A model generated the notes under the pieces. It did not search any database. It worked only from the letters and a program-made list of their open reading frames with translations, and was not told where the DNA came from. Both the position numbers and the translations under genes were made by a program. Below are positions 6,856 through 60,480 of a stretch of DNA of 64,000 nucleotides, in pieces. Origin of the DNA: Dyella sp. OK004 (GTDB lineage Bacteria; Pseudomonadota; Gammaproteobacteria; Xanthomonadales; Rhodanobacteraceae); the NCBI RefSeq assembly GCF_900114495.1, contig NZ_FOZI01000007.1, positions 6,606 to 70,605 of the forward strand, given 5' to 3'. Each line of letters starts with the position of its first letter. Within the stretch, counting starts at the first letter, position 1.

Positions 6856-7367
6856 TTGGGTTATCGCGACCTGGCCGCTTATGCAGCGGGCATTTCGGAC
6901 GCCTGCCGGCGCCCGAGTCACTTTCTCTTTGCTGACCCAAAGAGAAAGTAACCAAAGAGAAATGGTCGGGAAGAGCGCGGCGTACTTTGTAGCTACGCCT
7001 TTTCCAGTGTCAGGCGTCGGGTTTGCTCTTTCTCCCTCCCCTGCTTGCAGGGGAGGGCTGGGGAGGGGTAAGTACTTGGTTCGCGGTTTCCTATTTTGAG
7101 TGTCGGTTGATCGTGACGCAGCCACTAGCGACGCCGTCGCGAGCACCCACCCCTCACCCCAACCCTCTCCCCAGAGGGGAGAGGGAGAAAAGAAAAACCC
7201 TCCAAACGTCTGACACTGGAAAAAGCGCATCTACAGAGCACACCGCCTGCTCTCAGGCCATTTCTCTTTGGTTACTTTCTCTTTGGGCCAGCAAAGAGAA
7301 AGTGACCCGGCTCGCGGCAGCGAGGCGGAATGCCCGCTGCATAAGCGGCCAGGTCGCAATAACCCAA
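6856..7367. repeat. Composite palindromic repeat, copy 1 (MITE-like)
   Basis: This 512-bp element begins TTGGGTTATCGCGACCTGG and ends with its inverted counterpart CCAGGTCGCAATAACCCAA. Arms of about 100 bp carry GCCGCTTATGCAGCGGGCAT and the CTTTCTCTTTG blocks. The core has CTCCCTCCCCTGCTTGCAGGGGAGGG near 7030 and a CCCTCTCCCCAGAGGGGAGAGGG hairpin near 7160. The element at 19544-20068 has the same order of parts and similar core sequence. No transposase is encoded. It fills most of the 619-bp gap inside the polysaccharide operon and probably affects readthrough from wzz into the methyltransferase gene. Confidence 0.85.
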
Positions 7368-7397
7368 CATCACAGCAAGAAGCCGCGAACCAAAGGC

Positions 7398-49599: not shown

Positions 49600-50439
49600 T
49601 CAGCGCGCCAAGGCGCCAATCAGCGCTGTGGTGAGCGGCTTCAGGTAGTAGCTCTCCGAAGGAATCACCTGGACTCGCACGCCATGTGCCGCCAATGCAT
49701 CGACCACCAATGGACCCACGGCGGCCACGACGACCCGCGCCAGCGCCGCTTGCAATGCAGCACTCTGCTGCTGCGCTTCAACCACGCGGAACAGGCGCTC
49801 CACCTGCTGCAGGCTGGTGAAAGCAATCGCATCGATGCCGCCTCCCCGCATGCGCTCGATCATGGCCATGACGTCGGCATCGTCGGCGGCGTCGGCATAG
49901 ACGTAAGGTGCCACTGGCAGCACTTGCGCACCCGCTTCGTCAAGAAACGCCATCAACAGCGTGTTGGGATCGCTTCCGTAGAGCTGCACCCCGATGCGCC
50001 GATAACGCAGATCCAGGTCTCGCAGCATCACGATCATGCCCGCCGTCGTTGCTGGATCGGCCACCAGCGTCGGGCGCAACCCCAGTTCGCGAAGCACACG
50101 CCCGGGCTTGGGGCCTCGCGCCACGATACGTATTTCGCTGAGTCGTTCGATGAAACGCTCTCGCCACTCAGGTGCGTGCCGATCGATAGCGCTCAACAGG
50201 CGACGTAATCCTTCGCCGGTAAACAGCAGCAGGTCGTCGCAGCCCCCACCGTTGAACATGCGCAACCATTCAAGCACCGGCGCCGGGTCCGGCGCATCGC
50301 GGATGTCGACCAGAGGGCAACGCCAGACCTCCGCCCCGCGCCGCTCCAGCAAGGAGGCAAACACATCCAGCTCACGCGATTCGGGAACCGCAATACACCG
50401 ACCTGCCAGGGCATGGTTCGATTCGACAGGCAGCGTCAT
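49600..50439 (-). CDS. hemD: Uroporphyrinogen-III synthase (HemD-like)
   Basis: This 279-residue protein has the two-domain HemD fold, with VPESRELDVFASLLERRGAEVWRCPLV, GKGLRR-like GEGLRRLLSAI, and ADPATTAGMIVMLRDLDLRYRRIGVQLYGSD near the middle. Residues DAIAFTSLQQVERLFRVVE are near the C-terminal domain. It closes hydroxymethylbilane to uroporphyrinogen III, the precursor of sirohaem. It is last in the nitrate-assimilation operon after cysG, so it should supply the sirohaem needed by NirB. The start has a good GGGAG site. Confidence 0.85.
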   Translation of the reverse strand: MTLPVESNHALAGRCIAVPESRELDVFASLLERRGAEVWRCPLVDIRDAPDPAPVLEWLRMFNGGGCDDLLLFTGEGLRRLLSAIDRHAPEWRERFIERLSEIRIVARGPKPGRVLRELGLRPTLVADPATTAGMIVMLRDLDLRYRRIGVQLYGSDPNTLLMAFLDEAGAQVLPVAPYVYADAADDADVMAMIERMRGGGIDAIAFTSLQQVERLFRVVEAQQQSAALQAALARVVVAAVGPLVVDALAAHGVRVQVIPSESYYLKPLTTALIGALAR

Positions 50440-50475
50440 GGATCACTCCCGCAAGGAAAGCGCTGGGGGCAAGAC

Positions 50476-51915
50476 TCATACCGTTTCAGCACACGCATCC
50501 TGTGTAACCGTCGTGCCCGACCGATGGGATACGAGCTCGCCAAACCACGCATGATCGCGCGCCATGGCGGCCACTTCGCCAATGATCAATAACGCCGGCG
50601 TACCCACTGCGTGCTGCCTTGCCAGGGCCGGCAAAGCGTGGAGGGCGCCAGTGATCACGCGCTGCAGTGGCAGCGTGCCGTTCTCGATCAATGCGAAGGG
50701 CGTATCTGCGCGGCGACCGTATTCGAGCAGCCTGGCGGTCAATACGTCGATGCGCTCCACGCCCATATAGACGGCCAGGGTCAGGCGGTGGTTGGCCAGT
50801 GCATGCCAGTCCAGCGTATCGGTCGTGTCCTTGCCATGCGCGGTAAGCAGGCAGACTGACTGGGCATAGTCGCGATGGGTCAATGGAATGCCCGCATAGG
50901 CCGCACACGCCACCGCGGCGGTGATGCCGGGCACGATCTCGCAATCGACGCCATGCCTGCGCAGGAAGGCCATCTCCTCGCCACCCCGGCCGAACACGAA
51001 CGGGTCGCCACCCTTGAGCCGCACCACACGCTTGCCTGCCCGCGCATGGGCGAGCATAAGTTGATGGGTATGGTCCTGCGGCACATGGCGGCCGGCGCAA
51101 CGCTTGCCGACGTCGATGCATTCGGCATCGCGCCGCGCCATCGCCAGCACGTCGGCGCTGACCAGTTGGTCATGGAGAATCACGTCGGCCTGGTTGAGTG
51201 CGCGCAGCGCCTGTAGCGTCAGCAGCCCGGGATCGCCTGGGCCGGCGCCGACCAGCGTCACCGAACCCCTGGCCGGCTCGACACCGAGCGCGCTCAACGC
51301 ATCCAGCATGACGTGCTCAGCCTCGGCAGGCTGGGCGCGACGGAGCAGCGGCAGGACCGGACCATCATGCAGCCAGTCATAGAAGCCACGACGTTCCGCC
51401 AGCCCGGGAAAGCGATGCACGATGCTGCTGCGATGCTGCTGTGCGAGCGTCACCAGCGCCCCGAGCGCATGGTCCAGCACGCGCTCCAGCGTCTCGCGCA
51501 CGCGGCGCGCCAGCGCCGGCGCCGCACCGGCGGTGGAGATGGCCACCATCAGCGGCGAACGATCAACTACTGCAGGCACATGAAAACGCGACAGCGATGC
51601 ATCGTCGACCACGTTCACCAGAAGGCGCCGCGCCGCAGCGTCCGCGGCAACCTGTGCATTGAGGGCGCGATCGTCCGTGGCAGCTATCGCCAGCCACACA
51701 TCATCGAGCCATGCCGACTGATAACAATCATGCAGCCACGTTACCTGGCCGCCGCCAGCGAGCCGTGCCAGAGCGGGATTCAATTGTGGTGCGCCCACCC
51801 GCACCTTCGCACCAGTAGCGAGCAAAGCAGCGACCTTGCGCTCAGCCACCGCGCCACCGCCGATCACCAGCACCGGCAGCCCCTTCAGGTCAGCAAATAG
51901 CGGATACAGCTTCAT
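50476..51915 (-). CDS. cysG: Sirohaem synthase (multifunctional CysG)
   Basis: This 479-residue protein is a CysG fusion. The N-terminal precorrin-2 dehydrogenase/ferrochelatase domain begins [20 protein letters not shown]-like (about 9-28). The C-terminal uroporphyrinogen methyltransferase domain has [38 protein letters not shown] and [20 protein letters not shown]. It makes sirohaem from uroporphyrinogen III in three steps. It is 22 bp after nasA in the operon. ATG 51915 is the family start; the longer frame is spurious. Confidence 0.95.
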
Positions 51916-51937
51916 GATTTGCCCCTCGGTCGTTGCC

Positions 51938-54649
51938 TCACGCGCCCGCCTCCGCTTGCACCTCGGCAATCAGTTGTCGCAACTCCGGCACACAAGAGCC
52001 GCAGTTGCCGCCCGCGCGCAAGCTGGCGGTAATTTGCGCAGGCGTTTCCAGTCGCTTCTCGCGAATCGCGGCACAGAGCGTGTTACGCCCCACCCCGAAG
52101 CACGAGCACACGATGGGCCCGCTGTCGCCATCCGCATTGGGCGGCTCGCCGGCCAACAGACCCACGCGATCACTTTCATCGAGGCGCTCCTGCGCAAACA
52201 GGCCCGCCAGCCATTGGCGCGCCGGCAGGTCCTGACGTGCGGAAAGAAACATGCACGATTCGATGCGATCGTCGATGACGTACGCGGCGCGATAGACACC
52301 CGTGCTGCGGTCTTCGTATTCCAGCCAGTCGGCGTCAGGATCGTCGACGCCGAGCCATGCGCGCGCCCACGCGCCGCAATCCGCCAGCCGATCGCGATGG
52401 GCGATCTCGTAGCGCAGAAAACGCTCGCCGCGAATGAGCGTCCAATAGCTCGGCCCGGAAGGTGGAAACGCTCGTCGTCCGAATGCAAAGCCATACCAGC
52501 GCACCGGGAACGGCTCTACCCAGACCGGCGTGTGCTTGAACTCCGGTTCGCCGGAAACCGGATCCACTACCGGATTGACCAATCCGCCGACACGCGCATC
52601 GGAGGCAAACTGGTCGTTCCAGTGAATCGGCACGAACACATGGCCGACAAGAATGCCGCCGCCATGGCGCACACGCGCGACCATCGCCCCCCAGCGTGAA
52701 CGCACCCGTGCCAGTTCGCCTTCGCGCACGCCGAAGCGCAACGCGTCATGGGGGTGCATGTCGATGTACGGCTCGCTGATATGTCCCGCTAACCGGGGCG
52801 ATTTTCCGGTTCGCGTCATGGTGTGCCATTGATCACGCACGCGGCCGGTATTGAGCACGAGCGGATACTCGGCGTCGGGCGCATGCACGGGCGCGCGGCC
52901 GGGCGTGGCGATAAAACGCGCGCGGCGATCGCTGTGCGCAAAGCATCCGTCCGCAAACATCCTCTGCGTTCCGCTGCCATCCTCCATCACCGGCCACTGC
53001 ACCGGCATGAGTGCGTCGTAGCCTTGCTGGCTCAATGTCGCAAGGGCACCCAGGTTGAGCTGCCGTGGCGCAGCAGGCTGACCGTCGCTGAGCGGCTCGC
53101 GATTGCGGAAGGCGGTGAGCCGCGCGTGCTCCACGAAAATATCGTGCGGTCCGTCGAACTGGAAACCGCGCCCGAAACCCAGCCGTTGCGCAACGTCGCA
53201 GACCATGCGCCAGTCGGCCCGTGCTTCCCCCGGCGCAGGCAGGAACGGCCGTTGACGGGAGACGCGTCGTTCGGAACTAGTCACGGTGCCGTTTTTCTCG
53301 CCCCAGCCAAGCGCAGGTAACAACACGTGGGCGAACGCATTGGTGTCCGTCGCTTCGACGATGTCGGAGCACACCACCAGTTCGCACGCTTCCAGCGCGC
53401 GTTTCACGCGGTCTGCATCGGGCAGGCTCACCACCGGATTGGTGCCCATGATCCACAGTGCTTTTACCTGCCCCTGCAGCACCGCGTCGAACAGCTCCAC
53501 CGCTTTCAGCCCCGGCTGGGAGGCGATGCGCGGTGAATCCCAGAACGACTGCACGATGTCGCGATGCACCGCCTCGTGCAGCTCCATATGCGCGGCAAGC
53601 ATGTTGGCCAGCCCGCCCACCTCGCGCCCACCCATGGCATTGGGCTGTCCTGTGATCGAGAACGGCCCCATGCCCGGCCTGCCGATGCGCCCGGTGAGCA
53701 GATGGCAGTTGATGATGCCGTTGACCTTGTCCGTGCCACTGGACGATTGGTTCACACCTTGCGAGAACAGGCTGACGGTTTTCTCGTAGCGTGCGAACCA
53801 GCGATAGAAGGTCAGCAGGTCGGCCAGCTGCACGCCACAGATACGCGCCACCTCTGCAGGGTCGCCCGCATCGGCATCGGCTGCCGCCAGCGCTTGTGCC
53901 AGCCCCTGTGTGTGCGCATCGACAAAGGCGGCGTCCATTGCACCGTGCCGGAACAGAAACGACAGCAGGCCGTTGAACAGCCAGACGTCGGTGCCCGGCC
54001 TTACCGGCAGATGCAAGTCCGCCGACTCGCAGGTCGCGGTGAAGCGCGGGTCGATCACCACGATGCGCGTACCGCTGCCCTGCTCCCTGGCCTGGACCAT
54101 GCGCTGGAAGATCACCGGATGGCACCACGCCGTATTCGAGCCGACCAGCACGATGAGCTCCGCCTGCTCCAGGTCCTCATAGCAACCCGGCACCGTGTCC
54201 TCACCGAACGCGCGCTTGTGCCCGGCTACCGCCGAGGACATGCACAGGCGTGAATTGGTGTCGATATTGGCGGTACCGATGTATCCCTTGGCCAACTTGT
54301 TGACGACGTAGTAGTCCTCGGTCAGCAGCTGACCAGACACGTAGAAGGCCACTGCATCCGGGCCATGACTGTCGATGATCTGGCGGAAACCGCTGGCTAC
54401 ACGATCGAGTGCTTCACTCCAATCCACTTGCCGAAGCGCCCCGTCCAGCTCGCGCAGTTTCGGTTGGAGCAGACGTCCCTCCATGCCCATGGTCTCGCCT
54501 AGCGCTGCGCCCTTCACGCACAGGCGGCCGAAATTGGAACCATGCTGGGGATCGCCCGTCACGTTGACCACACCATCGGCGCCGACGTTCGCAAGTACGC
54601 CACAACCGACGCCGCAATACGGACAGGTGGTGGCCACTGCGCCATTCAT
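51938..54649 (-). CDS. nasA: Assimilatory nitrate reductase, catalytic subunit
   Basis: This 903-residue molybdopterin oxidoreductase reduces nitrate to nitrite in the cytoplasm. The N-terminal [4Fe-4S] site is Cys9, Cys12, Cys16 and a later Cys in GRLCVKG. Moco-binding segments include [20 protein letters not shown] and [22 protein letters not shown]-terminal BFD-like [2Fe-2S] domain has [11 protein letters not shown] and [10 protein letters not shown], found in NasA-type rather than NarG-type enzymes. ATG 54649 overlaps the FAD-reductase stop as ATGA, so the two are likely made together. The electron donor is probably the FAD protein or NirB-like system. Confidence 0.95.
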
Positions 54650-55908
54650 GCGGCTATCCCGGTATTTCCGGCAACCGGTGTCTGGCAATAACTGCGGCCG
54701 AACAACAACCGATCGCGCCATGGCGCAATGTCCGTGCCGTTCTGTATCAACTCGAAATACCAGCCGCCCTCCTTCGCGTCGCCATACAGCACCGCACCGA
54801 CGAGACGGTTCTCCCTGAGCACCAGCCGCTTGTAGACGCCACGGCGCGGATCGCGCAACACCAGGTCCTCGGTGCCGGCGCCGCCGATGAAGTCGCCGGC
54901 CGAATACAGATCAATGCCGGTGACCTTCAGCCGGGTAGCACTTTCCGCTGCGCGATAGCGGCGATGCCCAAAGCGCGCCAGATGCGCCGCGCAGACCCGC
55001 GCCTGCTCCCACGCCGGCGCCACCAGGCCGAAGGTCGCTTTGCGATGCTGCACGCACTCGCCGACCGCATAGATCAGCGGATCGTAGGTTTGCAAGGTGT
55101 CGTCGACCACAATGCCGCGCTCGCAATAAATGCCGCTCGACTGGGCCAGCGCCATGTCGGGACGTACCCCCACGGCCATCACCACCAGGTCGGCGTCAAT
55201 GCGACTGTCATCGGCCAGCGCGACGCCTTGCACGCGCTCGCGGCCATACAGCGAAACCGTCTCCGCATCGAGCTGAAGTGTGAGGCCACGCGCCTGCAGG
55301 TTGCTGGCGAGCAACTTCGCCGCGTCGGCGTTGAGCTGCTGGTTGAGCAATACATGGCTGCGATGGATCAGGCTCACCTGCATGCCACGCCGGGACAAAC
55401 CGTTGGCCGCCTCGATGCCCAGCAGGCCACCACCGATCACCGCGGCACGCTGGTAGGTATCGGCAGCCGCCACCATGCGTTCCACATCGTCGATGCCGCG
55501 GAAGCAGACCACGCCCGGCAAGTCGTTGCCCGGCACCGGCAACATCACTGGCTGCGAACCCGTGGCGATCAGCAGGCGGTCATAGGCGAGCTCGACACCG
55601 GCACGCGACCGCACGCGCCGGCGCACGCGATCGATCGCCACCACCGGGTCGCCTGCGTGCAGCGCAATACCATTCGCGGCATACCACTCGGGCGTATTGA
55701 GCATGATGTCGTCCGCCTGCTTCTCACCGCTGAGCAGCAGCGAAAGCATGATGCGGTTGTAGTTGCCGTAGGGCTCGGCGCCGAACACGCTGATGTCGTA
55801 CAGATCCGGCGCGAGCTGCAACAACTCCTCCACCGTGCGGATGCCGGCCATGCCATTGCCGATGACCACCAGCCGAGGGCGACGCTGATGAAGTATCGCC
55901 ATCGTCAT
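54646..55908 (-). CDS. nasB: NAD(P)H/FAD-dependent nitrate-reductase electron-transfer subunit
   Basis: This 420-residue protein is similar to the N-terminal FAD half of NirB and to reductase subunits such as NasB/NasC. FAD-binding segments are RPRLVVIGNGMAGIRTVEEL and DPLIYAVGECVQHRKATFG; the NAD(P) site is AAVIGGGLLGIEAANGLSR. It lacks the sirohaem domain. It should pass electrons from NAD(P)H to NasA, with which it overlaps by ATGA. The symbol is used by analogy. Its start codon and first ten codons are inside the right arm of the palindrome at 55876-56165. Confidence 0.85.
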   Translation of the reverse strand: MTMAILHQRRPRLVVIGNGMAGIRTVEELLQLAPDLYDISVFGAEPYGNYNRIMLSLLLSGEKQADDIMLNTPEWYAANGIALHAGDPVVAIDRVRRRVRSRAGVELAYDRLLIATGSQPVMLPVPGNDLPGVVCFRGIDDVERMVAAADTYQRAAVIGGGLLGIEAANGLSRRGMQVSLIHRSHVLLNQQLNADAAKLLASNLQARGLTLQLDAETVSLYGRERVQGVALADDSRIDADLVVMAVGVRPDMALAQSSGIYCERGIVVDDTLQTYDPLIYAVGECVQHRKATFGLVAPAWEQARVCAAHLARFGHRRYRAAESATRLKVTGIDLYSAGDFIGGAGTEDLVLRDPRRGVYKRLVLRENRLVGAVLYGDAKEGGWYFELIQNGTDIAPWRDRLLFGRSYCQTPVAGNTGIAA

Positions 55909-56004
55909 GATGCCTGGAAGGCTCGCAGGCCGCGCCGCGTGGCGCAGGGAAGACTGGTCGTCTTGGCAAGCCGCGCGGCGCGGCCTGCGAGCCTTCCAGG
56001 CATC
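55909..56004. repeat. Long hairpin 1 (31-bp arms)
   Basis: Perfect 31-bp arms begin GATGCCTGGAAGGCTCGCAG and end CTGCGAGCCTTCCAGGCATC at 55909-55939 and 55974-56004, with a 34-bp loop. It ends one base before the FAD-reductase ATG and would put the ribosome-binding region in a stem. Confidence 0.9.
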
Positions 56005-56035
56005 ACCCCGTCATTTGAAATGTCATCCGCTGGGG

Positions 56036-56133
56036 CCAGCCCTGTCTGTTCGCAGGCCTTCGGTCCGCCGTCTCGACAGACCACCAGTCTGCTTTCGACG
56101 ACGGCCCTATGGCCCGCGAACAGACAGGGCTGG
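56036..56133. repeat. Long hairpin 2 (18-bp arms)
   Basis: Perfect 18-bp arms CCAGCCCTGTCTGTTCGC and GCGAACAGACAGGGCTGG lie at 56036-56053 and 56116-56133, with further imperfect pairing inside. The right end directly abuts the outer 32-bp repeat copy. Confidence 0.9.
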
Positions 56134-56179
56134 TGACGATGGCGATACTTCATCAGCGTCGCCCTTGACCGCCTTCCGG

Positions 56180-56530
56180 TCATCGGCTATCGCGCCTGAC
56201 CCATACACGGTCATCTTGCAGGCGCACCTCCCAGGTACGCACTGCATGTTCCGGCGATTCCAGGCATTCGCCGCTGCGCAGATCGAAATGCTGTTTGTAG
56301 ATCGGCGACGCCACCACGATGCTTTCGCCCAGGCTGCCCACCAGACCACGCGACAGCACCGCAGCCTGCGAATGCGGGTCGACATTGGCGATGGCGTAGA
56401 AGTCGCCCTCCCCGACCCGGAATATCGCCACCTGCTCGCCGTCCACCAAAGCGCACACGCCGGTATCCGGAACGATGTCGCCGATGCCGCAAACGGCCAT
56501 CCATTCGTTATTCATGCCGAGCTCGCTCAT
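56180..56530 (-). CDS. nirD: Nitrite reductase small subunit (NirD)
   Basis: This 116-residue protein is a Rieske-like fold of the NirD type (NEWMAVCGIGDIVPDTGVCALVDG, FYAIANVDPHSQAAVLSRGL and ASPIYKQHFDLRSGECL). The iron-sulphur ligands of true Rieske proteins are absent, as usual for NirD. It joins NirB to make the NADH-nitrite reductase. ATG 56530 has a GGAG site 8 bp upstream; a GTG at 56539 overlaps the nirB stop and is an alternative. The palindrome follows its stop codon. Confidence 0.93.
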   Translation of the reverse strand: MSELGMNNEWMAVCGIGDIVPDTGVCALVDGEQVAIFRVGEGDFYAIANVDPHSQAAVLSRGLVGSLGESIVVASPIYKQHFDLRSGECLESPEHAVRTWEVRLQDDRVWVRRDSR

Positions 56531-56535
56531 TGTCG

Positions 56536-59106
56536 TCACTCCGCCAGCACCGTGACCGGTATGCGGGCATGCCGGCCGCGCTTCTCTTCTGCCGTTGCCG
56601 GGCGTATCTGTCCGCGCTCCGGCACGAAGACGACGTTGTCGTCGCTGGCGTCGCTATTGACGAAGTGGTGGAAGCGGCGACGTGTTTCCGGGTCGCTCAC
56701 GGCGCGCTTCCACTCGCACTCGTAGGTATCCACCACGAGCTTCATCTGCGCTTCCAGCTCGGCAGCGATACCCAGGCGGTCATCGATGATGACGCTGCGC
56801 AGATAGTCCATCCCGCCTTCGAGGTTGTCGCGCCATACGCTGGTGCGCTGGAGCCGGTCGGCCGTGCTGATGTAGAACATCAGGAAGAGGTCGATGTAAC
56901 GCACCAGGGTGGCCGTATCCAGGTCGCCCGCCAATAGTTCAGCGTGACGCGGCTTCATGCCGCCGTTGCCGCACACGTAGAGGTTCCAGCCTTTTTCGGT
57001 GGCGATCACGCCCACGTCCTTGCCCTGCGCCTCGGCGCACTCGCGGGTGCACCCTGACACGGCAAACTTCAGCTTATGCGGCGAACGCAACCCCTTGTAG
57101 CGGTTCTCCAGATCGATCGCGGTGCCTACCGAATCCTGCACGCCATAGCGGCACCAGGTGGAACCCACGCAGGACTTCACCGTGCGCAGCGACTTGCCAT
57201 AGGCATGCCCCGATTCGAAACCGGCGGCGATCAGCTCCTCCCAGATCAGCGGCAGCTGCTCCAACCGCGCGCCGAACATGTCTACGCGCTGGCCACCAGT
57301 GATCTTGGTGTAGAGGCCGTACTTCTTGGCCACCTGGCCCACAGCGATCAGCCCGTCGGGCGTCACCTCCCCACCCGGCATGCGCGGCACTACCGAGTAG
57401 CTGCCATCCTTCTGAATATTGGCGAGGAAGTAGTCGTTGGAATCCTGCAGCGATGCATGTTCCTTCTGCAGCACGAACTCGTTCCAGCATGAAGCCAGGA
57501 TGCTCGCCGCAGTGGGTTTGCAGATATCGCAGCCCAAACCCTTGCCATGGCGCGCGAGCAATTCATCGAAGCGGCGGATGCGCTCCACGCGTACCAGGTG
57601 GTACAGCTCCTGGCGCGAATACGCGAAGTGCTCGCACAGATGGTTGTCGACCGCCAAGCCTTGGCGTTTCATCTCCGCCTTCATGACCTGGGTGACCAGC
57701 GGCACGCAGCCGCCGCACGTCGTGCCCGCGCGCGTCGCGGCCTTCAAGGCGCCGACCGAAGTCGCGCCGGTCATGACGGCATCGCACAACTGCCCCTTGG
57801 ACACGTTGTTGCACGAACAAATTTGCGCGGAAGCCGGCAACGCATCGATGGAGAGTCCCGACTTGGCCTTGCCGTCGGACGAAGGAAGAATGAGAAACTC
57901 CGGCGCTTCGGGAAGCTCCAGCCCGTTGAGCATCATCTGCAGCAGCGTGCCGTATTCGGCGGCATCGCCCACCAGCACGCCACCCAGCAGCCGCTTGCCG
58001 TCTCCAGAAACCACCAGTTTCTTATAGATCTGCCGACGCTCGTCGCTGAACTGGTAGCTACGGCTGCCCGGCGTCGTGCCATGGGCATCGCCGATGCTGG
58101 CCACATCCACGCCCATCAGCTTGAGCTTGGTGGACATGTCGGCCCCGGCAAACTCCGGCAGGCTCGGCGCCTGCTTGCGCGTGAGCAACGCATGCAAATG
58201 GTTCGCTACCACTCGCGCCATCTCGTAACCCGGCGCTACCAGGCCAAAGATCTTCCCGCCCCATTGTGCGCACTCGCCGATGGCGTAGACGTCGCGATCG
58301 CGTGTGCGACAGAAGTTGTCGACCATGATGCCGCCACGCTGGCCCACACCTAGTTCGCTCTGTCGCGCCAGGTCGTCGCGCGGGCGAATACCGGCGGAGA
58401 ACACAATCAGGTCGGTCTCGAGTTGGCTGTCATCGGCGAACGTCATGCGATGGCGCGCCGTTTCGCCATCAACGATGGCCTGCGTGTTCTTTCCCGTATG
58501 CACTGTGAGACCAAGGTCCTCAATGGACCGCCGCAGCATCTGCCCGCCGATGTCGTCCACCTGCACCGCCATCAGGCGCGGCGCGAATTCCACCACGTGG
58601 GTCTCGAGCCTCATGTCGCGCAATGCCTTGGCGCATTCCAGCCCCAGCAGGCCGCCACCTATCACCACGCCATGCCGGGCATTCGTGCCCCATTGGCTCA
58701 GCGCTTCCAGATCGTCGAGCGTACGGTAGACCAGGCAACCCGGCCGGTCGTTGCCGGGAATCGGCGGCACAAACGGCGTTGAGCCTGTGGCCAGCACCAG
58801 CTTGTCGTAAGAGATCACTTCGCCGTCGGCGGTCGTCACTCGCTTGAACGCGCGATCAATCTGCACGGCGCGCGTGGCGAGCCGCAGGTGCAGGCCCGGC
58901 TGCTCGAAGAATCCGGGTGCCACCAGCGAGAGATCGTCCGCGCTCTTGCCCGCAAAGAATTCCGACAAGTGCACCCGGTCATAGGCCGGGCGGTTTTCCT
59001 CGCACAACACGGTGATGTCCAGGTCATGCAGCTGGAGCGCTACCAACTCCTCCAGCAACTTGTGTCCCACCATGCCATTGCCGATCACGACAAGCTTCAG
59101 CGCCAT
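56536..59106 (-). CDS. nirB: NADH-dependent nitrite reductase, large subunit
   Basis: This 856-residue protein reduces nitrite to ammonium with NADH. An N-terminal FAD domain (LKLVVIGNGMVGHKLLEELV) and NADH domain (RHGVVIGGGLLGLECAKAL) come first. A BFD-like [2Fe-2S] region (ICSCNNVSKGQLCDAVMTGA; CGGCVPLV) follows. The sulphite/nitrite reductase halves come next, with the [4Fe-4S]/sirohaem cysteines in FAVSGCTRECAEAQGKDVGV and LYVCGNGGMK. A GGAGG site precedes the ATG. It lies 21 bp after the transporter gene. The start of the operon order matches nitrate import then reduction. Confidence 0.97.
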   Translation of the reverse strand: MALKLVVIGNGMVGHKLLEELVALQLHDLDITVLCEENRPAYDRVHLSEFFAGKSADDLSLVAPGFFEQPGLHLRLATRAVQIDRAFKRVTTADGEVISYDKLVLATGSTPFVPPIPGNDRPGCLVYRTLDDLEALSQWGTNARHGVVIGGGLLGLECAKALRDMRLETHVVEFAPRLMAVQVDDIGGQMLRRSIEDLGLTVHTGKNTQAIVDGETARHRMTFADDSQLETDLIVFSAGIRPRDDLARQSELGVGQRGGIMVDNFCRTRDRDVYAIGECAQWGGKIFGLVAPGYEMARVVANHLHALLTRKQAPSLPEFAGADMSTKLKLMGVDVASIGDAHGTTPGSRSYQFSDERRQIYKKLVVSGDGKRLLGGVLVGDAAEYGTLLQMMLNGLELPEAPEFLILPSSDGKAKSGLSIDALPASAQICSCNNVSKGQLCDAVMTGATSVGALKAATRAGTTCGGCVPLVTQVMKAEMKRQGLAVDNHLCEHFAYSRQELYHLVRVERIRRFDELLARHGKGLGCDICKPTAASILASCWNEFVLQKEHASLQDSNDYFLANIQKDGSYSVVPRMPGGEVTPDGLIAVGQVAKKYGLYTKITGGQRVDMFGARLEQLPLIWEELIAAGFESGHAYGKSLRTVKSCVGSTWCRYGVQDSVGTAIDLENRYKGLRSPHKLKFAVSGCTRECAEAQGKDVGVIATEKGWNLYVCGNGGMKPRHAELLAGDLDTATLVRYIDLFLMFYISTADRLQRTSVWRDNLEGGMDYLRSVIIDDRLGIAAELEAQMKLVVDTYECEWKRAVSDPETRRRFHHFVNSDASDDNVVFVPERGQIRPATAEEKRGRHARIPVTVLAE

Positions 59107-59127
59107 CTCGATGGCCTCCCCGCCCCG

Positions 59128-60480
59128 TCAGTCGATTGCCAGCGCAGCAGGCGCCGATGCATCGGCACGACCCTGTTGCAAGGATTCCCGATAAAGCCGC
59201 TCTTCGTGGGCCGCATGCTCATGACTGAAGCGCACCGCGAGCGCGCACAGCGAACCGGCGATCACAAAACCGCCCAGATACATAAAGGTGTGTTGCACCG
59301 AGCCGGTGGCTTTCTGCAGGAAGCCAGCGGCCACGGCTCCCACGTTGCCGCCCGCACCCACGATGCCTGCCACCCCGCCGAGTGCTTTGCGATCGATGAA
59401 AGGCACCAGCGCGTAGGTCGCGCCGCAAGCCATGTGCGTGCACAGGCCAAAGGCAAGCATGGCGGTCACGGCGATACCGGCGCCCTGCGCTCCCGAGAAC
59501 CACAGCAGGCCCAATCCCTCAGCCAGCATCAGGATGCATAGCAGACGCGCGCGTGCCGGCAGGCCATGTCTGCGCGCCAGGCGATCCGACGCCAGACCGC
59601 CCAGCGCACGCGCGAACAAGGCGAGCAACCCGAAGCCGCCGACCGCGAGTCCCGCCGAACGGAGATTCAGTCCGAAGCGATCAACGTAATAGCCGGCAGC
59701 CACGCCATGTACGAACAGCTCGATGCCGAAACAACCGGCATAGGTGACGAACAACATCCACACCCGATAGTTGCGCGAGGCGAGCCGGAACGCGCTCCAG
59801 CCACCGCCCTTGCCGCTGTTCACCGCCACGCCGCGCGCGCGCAGTTCCCGGTAATCGCCTTGCGGGCCATCCTGCGTGTACTTCCAGTACAGCACGCCCA
59901 CGACCACCATCAGCACACCCGGAACCAGCATTGCCACCCGCCAACCCTGGCCGTTGCTCACACCAAGGGCCACCAGGCCGGCAAGCACCCAGGGCATCGC
60001 AGCCTGCGCCACGCCACCACCGGCGTTACCCCAGCCAGCCGCCGTCGCATTGGCCGTGCCCACCACATTGGGCGCGAACATCACCGACGTGTGGTACTGC
60101 GTCACCACGAAGCCTGCACCGACGATGCCGATCGCCATGCGAATCAGCAGGAAGGAGGCATAGTCGTGCACCAGCAACATGCCGAACACGGGCAACGATC
60201 CCAACAGCAATAGACCGGTATACGTGCGGCGCGGTCCCAGGCTGTCGCATAGCGGACCGATCAATAGCCGTCCAAAAATAGTGACGGCAACCGCGGCGAT
60301 GTTGATATTGGCAATCTGATCCGCACTGAGATGGAATTCGTCCTTCACCAACGGCATCAACGGCGCTACGGCGAACCAGGCAAAAAAGCAGACGAAGAAC
60401 GCCAGCCAGCTGAGATGAAACGCGCGCATGGGTGGCGTCCGCCACTGGAACAATTCGATCCGTGTCGCTTTGCCCGACAT
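59128..60480 (-). CDS. narK: Nitrate/nitrite MFS transporter (NarK/NasA family)
   Basis: This 450-residue MFS permease has 12 helices and the nitrate-signature segments of the NarK group: FVVTQYHTSVMFAPNVVGTANATAAG-like in helix 5 and FGLCTHMACGATYALVPFIDRKALGGVAGIVGAGGNVG in helices 10-11. An Arg in helix 2 or 8 binds nitrate in known members. ATG 60480 has a strong GGCGGAGG site. It is first in the nirBD-nasA operon, so it should import nitrate for assimilation. The symbol is used for the family only. Confidence 0.93.
   Translation of the reverse strand: MSGKATRIELFQWRTPPMRAFHLSWLAFFVCFFAWFAVAPLMPLVKDEFHLSADQIANINIAAVAVTIFGRLLIGPLCDSLGPRRTYTGLLLLGSLPVFGMLLVHDYASFLLIRMAIGIVGAGFVVTQYHTSVMFAPNVVGTANATAAGWGNAGGGVAQAAMPWVLAGLVALGVSNGQGWRVAMLVPGVLMVVVGVLYWKYTQDGPQGDYRELRARGVAVNSGKGGGWSAFRLASRNYRVWMLFVTYAGCFGIELFVHGVAAGYYVDRFGLNLRSAGLAVGGFGLLALFARALGGLASDRLARRHGLPARARLLCILMLAEGLGLLWFSGAQGAGIAVTAMLAFGLCTHMACGATYALVPFIDRKALGGVAGIVGAGGNVGAVAAGFLQKATGSVQHTFMYLGGFVIAGSLCALAVRFSHEHAAHEERLYRESLQQGRADASAPAALAID

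Follow-up and report, generated by a model that had tools for sequence, protein, structure and literature searches.

Within the 64,000-nucleotide stretch of Dyella sp. OK004 DNA that we analysed (the window), nirD and a gene for a FAD/NAD(P)H reductase are transcribed leftwards, and the junction between them is occupied by a 290 bp segment rich in inverted repeats (Table 1). The best NCBIfam match of the reductase is the N-terminal part of NirB, at a score below the cut-off of that model, and its 420-codon frame is intact with its domains. All three pairs of inverted repeats named in the original prediction are real and free of mismatches: the outer arms are exact over 32 bp, those of hairpin A (55909-55939 and 55974-56004) over 31 bp, or 32 bp with a one-base outward extension, and those of hairpin B (56036-56053 and 56116-56133) over 18 bp. 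A third, small hairpin (CCCC...GGGG) links the two large ones, and the outer arms span codons 1-11 of the reductase open reading frame as called from the ATG at 55908.

Table 1. Coordinates of features at the nirD-reductase junction (window positions).
Feature	Position	Strand	Basis
Whole element, type T1, 290 bp, probable IS5-type MITE with three-hairpin interior	55876..56165		Dispersed copies and absence in relatives
Terminal inverted repeat, reductase-body side	55876..55907		Exact 32-bp match to other arm; homologous to ends of other copies
Terminal inverted repeat, nirD side	56134..56165		Exact match to other arm
Inner hairpin A	55908..56005		Exact arms, fold, covariation in 11 copies
Small central hairpin CCCC...GGGG	56006..56035		Fold; helix 5 of covariation analysis
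Inner hairpin B, arms continuing imperfectly	56036..56133		Arms, fold, covariation
92-codon open reading frame from native start through element; its TGA (55905-55907) overlaps the new ATG	55905..56183	-	ORF list, frame scan
Element-borne ATG, in frame with reductase, 33 nt from element end	55906..55908	-	ORF list, frame scan
Native reductase start, displaced; ATG of the ATGA overlapping the nirD stop (56180-56182)	56181..56183	-	Sequence; homologous to ATGA/GTGA in L082-L091
Interrupted FAD/NAD(P)H reductase, Pyr_redox_2 and Rubredoxin_C, 420 aa, first 11 codons from element	54646..55908	-	ORF and domain searches
nirD, nitrite reductase small subunit	56180..56539	-	TIGR02378 above cut-off
Tetramer beside conserved core, CGAG (CTCG on - strand), one base from CTAG	55874..55877		Flank listing
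Tetramer on other side, CTTG (CAAG on - strand), one base from CTAG	56164..56167		Flank listing

The inverted repeats of the element are far above chance. Among perfect 16-mer inverted repeats no more than 320 bp apart in the window, 37 of 44 pairs fall at the element and the remaining seven at a single other place near 6.9-7.3 kb, and none of 20 first-order shuffles of the window contains any such pair. The predicted single-strand fold has an energy of -266.9 kcal/mol (z -19.6; 100 shuffles, mean -146.7, sd 6.1) and forms one closed structure in which a 32-bp outer stem encloses two long hairpins and a short central one. An imperfect palindrome of about 500 bp is also seen at 6866-7370, with perfect 22-bp inner arms (6944-6965 and 7258-7279) and outer arms that read by eye as GCGACCTGGCCGCTTATGCAGCGGGCATT; it has neither the T1 nor the T2 ends described below.

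Insertion into the reductase gene

Comparison with related genomes shows how the junction is organized when the 290 bp are missing. We kept 80 of 328 reductase loci and read the upstream 330 bases for the best 16 of the 80, with reading frames checked by script. All ten nearest named relatives (L082-L091), which comprise Frateuria, Dyella, and MAGs of Rhodanobacter and of a pseudomonadote, have an uninterrupted junction without the element. There the reductase start, in frame, shares bases with the nirD stop in an ATGA or GTGA and always lies 29 nt from the codons for GNGMAG. The six Burkholderiales loci (L092-L097) have a differently arranged junction, and the element is likewise absent. Frateuria defendens (L082), whose reductase is 92 % identical over residues 6-409, reads ATGAGCGAAAGGCGGCCA CGGCTGGTTGTC at this point, and the window reads ATGACCGGAAGGCGGTCA, then 290 bp, then CGGCTGGTGGTC. 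Judged from these two texts, the element sits between codons 6 and 7 of the original reductase gene and itself contributes the ATG at 55908, such that the apparently copied first codons of the reductase are its terminal inverted repeat. To say that the leader of the reductase contains an inverted copy of the start of the gene is thus literally correct, but the two copies are really the two ends of one inserted element.

Because the same unit is dispersed in the genome, is absent from this site in relatives, and resembles IS5-family insertion sequences at its ends, we interpret it as a 290-bp non-autonomous transposable element, most probably an inserted IS5-type MITE (type T1), a reading to which we give a probability of roughly 85 %. 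A local fold-back duplication, as had also been proposed, is not supported, given that the same 290-bp unit is present at other loci and that the site is uninterrupted in all ten relatives. The element carries no transposase gene, its longest frames being the 92-codon frame and fragments.

Dispersed copies and covariation of their arms

Three further full-length copies are present in the same genome (G000), with 90, 86 and 84 % identity to the query (55870-56180), and their matches stop near the outer arms (positions 7-296 or 9-294 of the 311-base query); weaker relatives were found as well. With the window copy there are four full T1 copies in this genome. Matches were found in 13 of the 41 genomes searched, its own included, and all 13 belong to the same bacterial family, although three (G012, G017 and G020) have only short, weak matches. 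None was found in 16 genomes from other families of the same order, and the plasmid collection has no match either to the element or to an end found in genome G094 (see below).

There are two end types, T1 (AAGGCAACGCTGAATAAGTATCGCC) and T2 (TAGGGATGCTCTGATCTATTC), with the window copy ending in a variant of the T1 end, AGGGCGACGCTGATGAAGTATCGCC. Full T1 and T2 copies are both about 290 bp and have a common three-hairpin interior. The T2 matches start near query positions 34-48, often extend to 227-269, and are mostly 67-77 % identical. Solo ends and shorter derivatives, down to 50 bp, are also present. A script listed 67 distinct paired copies of both end types among the loci collected, leaving out pairs above the end-mismatch limit or with ends at least 420 bp apart. 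A degenerate T1 pattern is exact in two of 147 genomes of the bacterial family, a pattern that misses the variant end of the window copy. Together, T1 and T2 appear to constitute a family of IS5-type MITEs whose interior forms large hairpins and whose hosts are relatives of Frateuria, Dyella and Rhodanobacter; among titles and abstract openings we found no paper naming it. Three solo T1 ends in genome G022 (L068, L069 and L077) resemble, by eye, the products of deletions with GCC at the join and about 30 nt left, and this short GCC junction seems recurrent.

Other insertions can be compared with uninterrupted sites. At dgoK, all four readable junctions in relatives (L285, L286, L287 and L288) have a start without the element, as ATGA or GTGA; two further loci (L291 and L294), not at the junction, were left out. 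Uninterrupted sites were also sought for four T2 copies. The first element of L009 is cleanly absent in G001, the first of L041 has an uninterrupted site in gapped alignments only, the site of the second in L009 is uninformative, and that of the second in L041 is split over two places. At the T2 copy at 5237-5524 of L041 (G001:C11:344000-351000), the two flanks match two contigs of G000 (C6 and C3), and in relatives they are likewise found apart, which suggests a chromosomal rearrangement at the element.

The original prediction proposed that the nitrate operon has an RNA switch in which the start of the reductase stays hidden until a ligand, protein or RNA opens it, and suggested covariation as a check. 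In the very stable fold (z -19.6) the AUG at 55908 is indeed predicted to lie in a paired junction, and covariation is strong. Among 11 T1 copies, 97.1 % of cells are paired versus 91.2 % after shuffling, and 32 of 113 pairs show two-sided change versus 15.1 in shuffles, both values lying beyond all 500 shuffles and far above slid controls. Further pair types number 57 versus 52.4, a value reached in 21 of the 500 shuffles. The check is thus positive, but the outer stem changes in the manner of a DNA palindrome, with 33 two-sided, 2 one-sided and 5 broken of 352 cells, and hairpin B has more one-sided changes. RNA helices pass through G-U pairs, and the near absence of such intermediates from the outer stem suggests maintenance at the DNA level, with the arms copied from each other or constrained as DNA ends and not selected as an RNA switch. 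What maintains the hairpins is probably arm copying or transposition, acting on the DNA, and not use as an operon sensor, and the pattern may be compatible with an RNA effect at any one locus. The element is also missing from all ten nearest named relatives, an absence that applies to the outer arm and speaks against a switch; the same element lies in dgoK, in tamA and elsewhere; and Rfam 15 has no match in the window at gathering score. We therefore give a dedicated switch of the nitrate operon very little likelihood.

Hardly any likelihood attaches to a phase switch in which the segment inverts by recombination between the 32-bp arms. The repeats are exact, and the inner hairpins occur in either order with respect to the gene that follows (L001 and L002 versus L003), but the opposite orders are seen at separate loci, which is what elements inserting in either direction would produce, and the arms are the ends of the element. 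By eye, no recombinase was noticed among the open reading frames of at least 90 aa at 50000-60000.

Target sites and candidate transposases

As to the enzymes that may have moved these elements, genome G022 has 41 matches to PF01609 (DDE_Tnp_1), and of 30 such loci scanned, three have T2 ends on both sides (L235, L236 and L237) and two on one side (L238 and L241). The insertion sequence at L235 is 1200 bp end to end, and its open reading frame, read up to its own stop only, matches the IS5 family transposase model NF033581 (E 2.7e-92). An insertion sequence in G102, the transposase of which matches the same model (E 1.1e-100), has a T1-like end, GGGCAACGCTGAATAAGTCC, and a different opposite end, GGATATGCTGAACAAG, and T1 ends or end fragments lie near two contig edges of G094. 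The T2 ends thus match IS5-family insertion sequences, and for T1, the type in the window, the correspondence consists of the similar G102 end and the G094 fragments; no complete insertion sequence with exactly T1 ends was found, and by eye the coordinate lists show no T1-end pair of insertion-sequence size in G022 and no such T2-end pair in G001. T1 and T2 lack a transposase, and the window copy was presumably inserted by an IS5-family enzyme acting in trans. There are no PF01609 matches in G000, G001 or G018, so the mover of the window copy may have been lost from its own genome, or may fall outside the PF01609 model.

The flanking tetramers of the 67 copies are TTAA on both sides in 12 and CTAG on both sides in seven, and YTAR fits 41 on the left, 38 on the right and 25 on both. 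Tetramers are identical as direct repeats in 21 of 67 and as inverted repeats in 22 of 67, and since these values are nearly equal and the tetramers mostly palindromic, a duplication is inseparable here from palindromic ends. The flanks of 2-12 bases outside the A...T ends show no direct repeat above random pairing, and shifting the ends inward by one base raises the 2-base comparison alone (z 3.9). Among the two-ended insertion sequences of G022, L236 and L237 are flanked by TTAG/TTAG and L235 by TTAG/CTAG. No intact target duplication flanks the window copy, which has CAAG/CTCG on the - strand, and Dyella acidisoli (L089) has CCTAGG at the insertion point; a decayed CTAG duplication and an insertion without duplication are both possible, and uninterrupted sites cannot tell them apart because at sites containing TA a duplication-free insertion looks like a YTAR duplication.

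The closest known system is MITEPsy1 of Pseudomonas syringae, described as 100 nt long with 18-nt ends like those of the IS5-family ISPsy2, with demonstrated transposition, and with CTAG or YTAA as a duplicated target (PMC3189936). T1 is similarly short and gene-free with ends resembling those of the IS5 family, and T1 and T2 are most often flanked by TTAA or CTAG, which would fit a target of the same type. They differ from the 100-nt MITEPsy1 in their length of about 290 bp and in an interior of three hairpins common to two end types, and they are known from sequence. A further likeness is to the intragenic bacterial MITEs and Rickettsia palindromic elements, described as small mobile palindromes whose open frames are joined to host genes (PMC2229807). 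T1 is also a small palindrome with an open frame joined to a host gene, but unlike these it ends the native frame and offers a new start in the frame of the gene.

The CGTC REP dimers, described together with TIR families of tyrosine transposases, are head-to-head palindromes, as T1 is, with REP units of 20-40 bp, and in H. neapolitanus CGTC-1 dimers lie inside a 41-bp palindrome beginning GGGaaGCTT, which by eye resembles the T2 ends; the accessible portion of this work reports no link to IS5 ends (PMC3733652), in which the dimers differ from T1 and T2. A CGTC also stands next to the T1 hairpins, at most as a candidate REP tag.

It is improbable that the element is instead a REPIN or BIME-type repeat moved by a RAYT (TnpA-REP) or an IS200-like transposase and not by an IS5 enzyme, and we rejected such an origin as the main reading. 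It would agree with the palindromic form, with the many solo ends and small palindromes in G022, with the lack of a clear duplication at the window site, and with a RAYT-like gene in the same genome; near the 13 IS200-like loci scanned of 16 in G022 there are also one solo T1 end and one poor T2-like end with 3 mismatches, two further matches at the mismatch limit being taken as chance. However, none of nine RAYT-like places scanned in 7 genomes has a T1 or T2 end, G001, with 79 matches to the T2 end, lacks any PF01797 match at E 0.001 (7 of 12 genomes have PF01797 matches), and the T2 ends are the ends of IS5-family insertion sequences. The solo T1 end lies at position 2009 of L184, about 150 bp from the IS200-like gene (G022, C1:1362126-1362482); it is the only exact (19-base) one among the 13 loci and is probably there by chance. 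At L193 (G018:C12:192000-196500) a RAYT-like gene at 1755-2433 is accompanied by inverted copies of TGTAGGAGCGCACCCTGTGCGCGAC, a GTAG-type repeat unlike T1 and T2, and a RAYT-like frame in G004 (L173; C1:888191-888514) has three stop codons and is apparently decayed.

Reading frames through the element

Two other T1 copies of G000 also lie just inside genes. One follows codon 2 of dgoK (L002, PF05035) at a GTGA overlap, and the other follows codon 3 of the presumed native frame of tamA (L003), whose native ATG is likewise presumed and whose best NCBIfam match, NF047950, is below cut-off on a partial frame. In both, the native frame runs to a stop overlapping an element start (ATGA; GTGA) that is in frame with the gene, and in all three genes the element is entered in codon phase and has an in-frame start 33 nt from its exit. 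Among the 11 full T1 copies, an ATG or GTG lies 33 nt from the exit end, with the path open to the end, in 22 of 22 orientations. Half of these orientations (11 of 22) keep frame 0 open over 240 nt or more, made up of all 6 from the in-gene copies and 5 of the 16 from the other eight; as a mark of in-gene copies this is a weak test (3/3 sense orientations versus 5/16; p about 0.06 by hand). Of random 290-bp segments, 1.4-2.3 % show such a stop/start layout. Because the three in-gene copies share ancestry, they do not count as independent cases, such that a restart is plausible and not proven. A T1 copy in G018 (L034, C17; 1484-1772) lies directly before an ATG (MPDFSALL...) and offers in-frame starts of its own; its insertion would displace the ribosome site of the gene.

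These frames suggest a possible route by which the reductase could still be made. Ribosomes finishing nirD would resume at the native ATG and read the 92-codon frame across the element, opening its hairpins as they go. On reaching the UGA at 55905-55907 they would terminate and then begin again on the overlapping AUG at 55908, adding 11 element-derived residues to the reductase. We regard such translation in two coupled steps as an even chance on the arrangement of the frames. As the AUG is buried in the predicted RNA, the restart would be expected to need ribosomes arriving through the 92-codon frame, and the proposed dependence on readthrough could hold in this form. A scan of 55700-56400 revealed no promoter or terminator.

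Alternatively, the insertion may have inactivated or strongly reduced the reductase, the in-frame ATG being accidental and hardly used, which we consider possible but somewhat unlikely. The start is buried in a very stable predicted structure and is preceded by no more than a weak AGG, and about 0.41-0.43 of random segments have a start in the exit frame within 60 nt; against this, the 420-aa open reading frame is intact with its domains, the same layout is seen in dgoK and tamA, and at the tamA site of G001 a 36-nt in-frame remnant joined to the native ATG keeps the gene open.

If coupled restart does occur, a gene hit just after its start codon would be restarted by translational coupling and not lost. 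It is a more doubtful proposition, which we put forward tentatively, that T1 has been shaped to survive in gene starts, with outward starts 33 nt from its tips, insertion in the phase between codons and restart by coupling, and has in this way spread into coupled operon junctions. For annotation, it should be noted that the first 11 residues of the reductase come from the transposon. What appeared to be an operon switch becomes, on the MITE interpretation, one member of a transposon family, which would explain three odd gene starts in a single genome, and if the restart layout is functional it would give a mobile element a simple means of sitting within coupled genes without doing harm.
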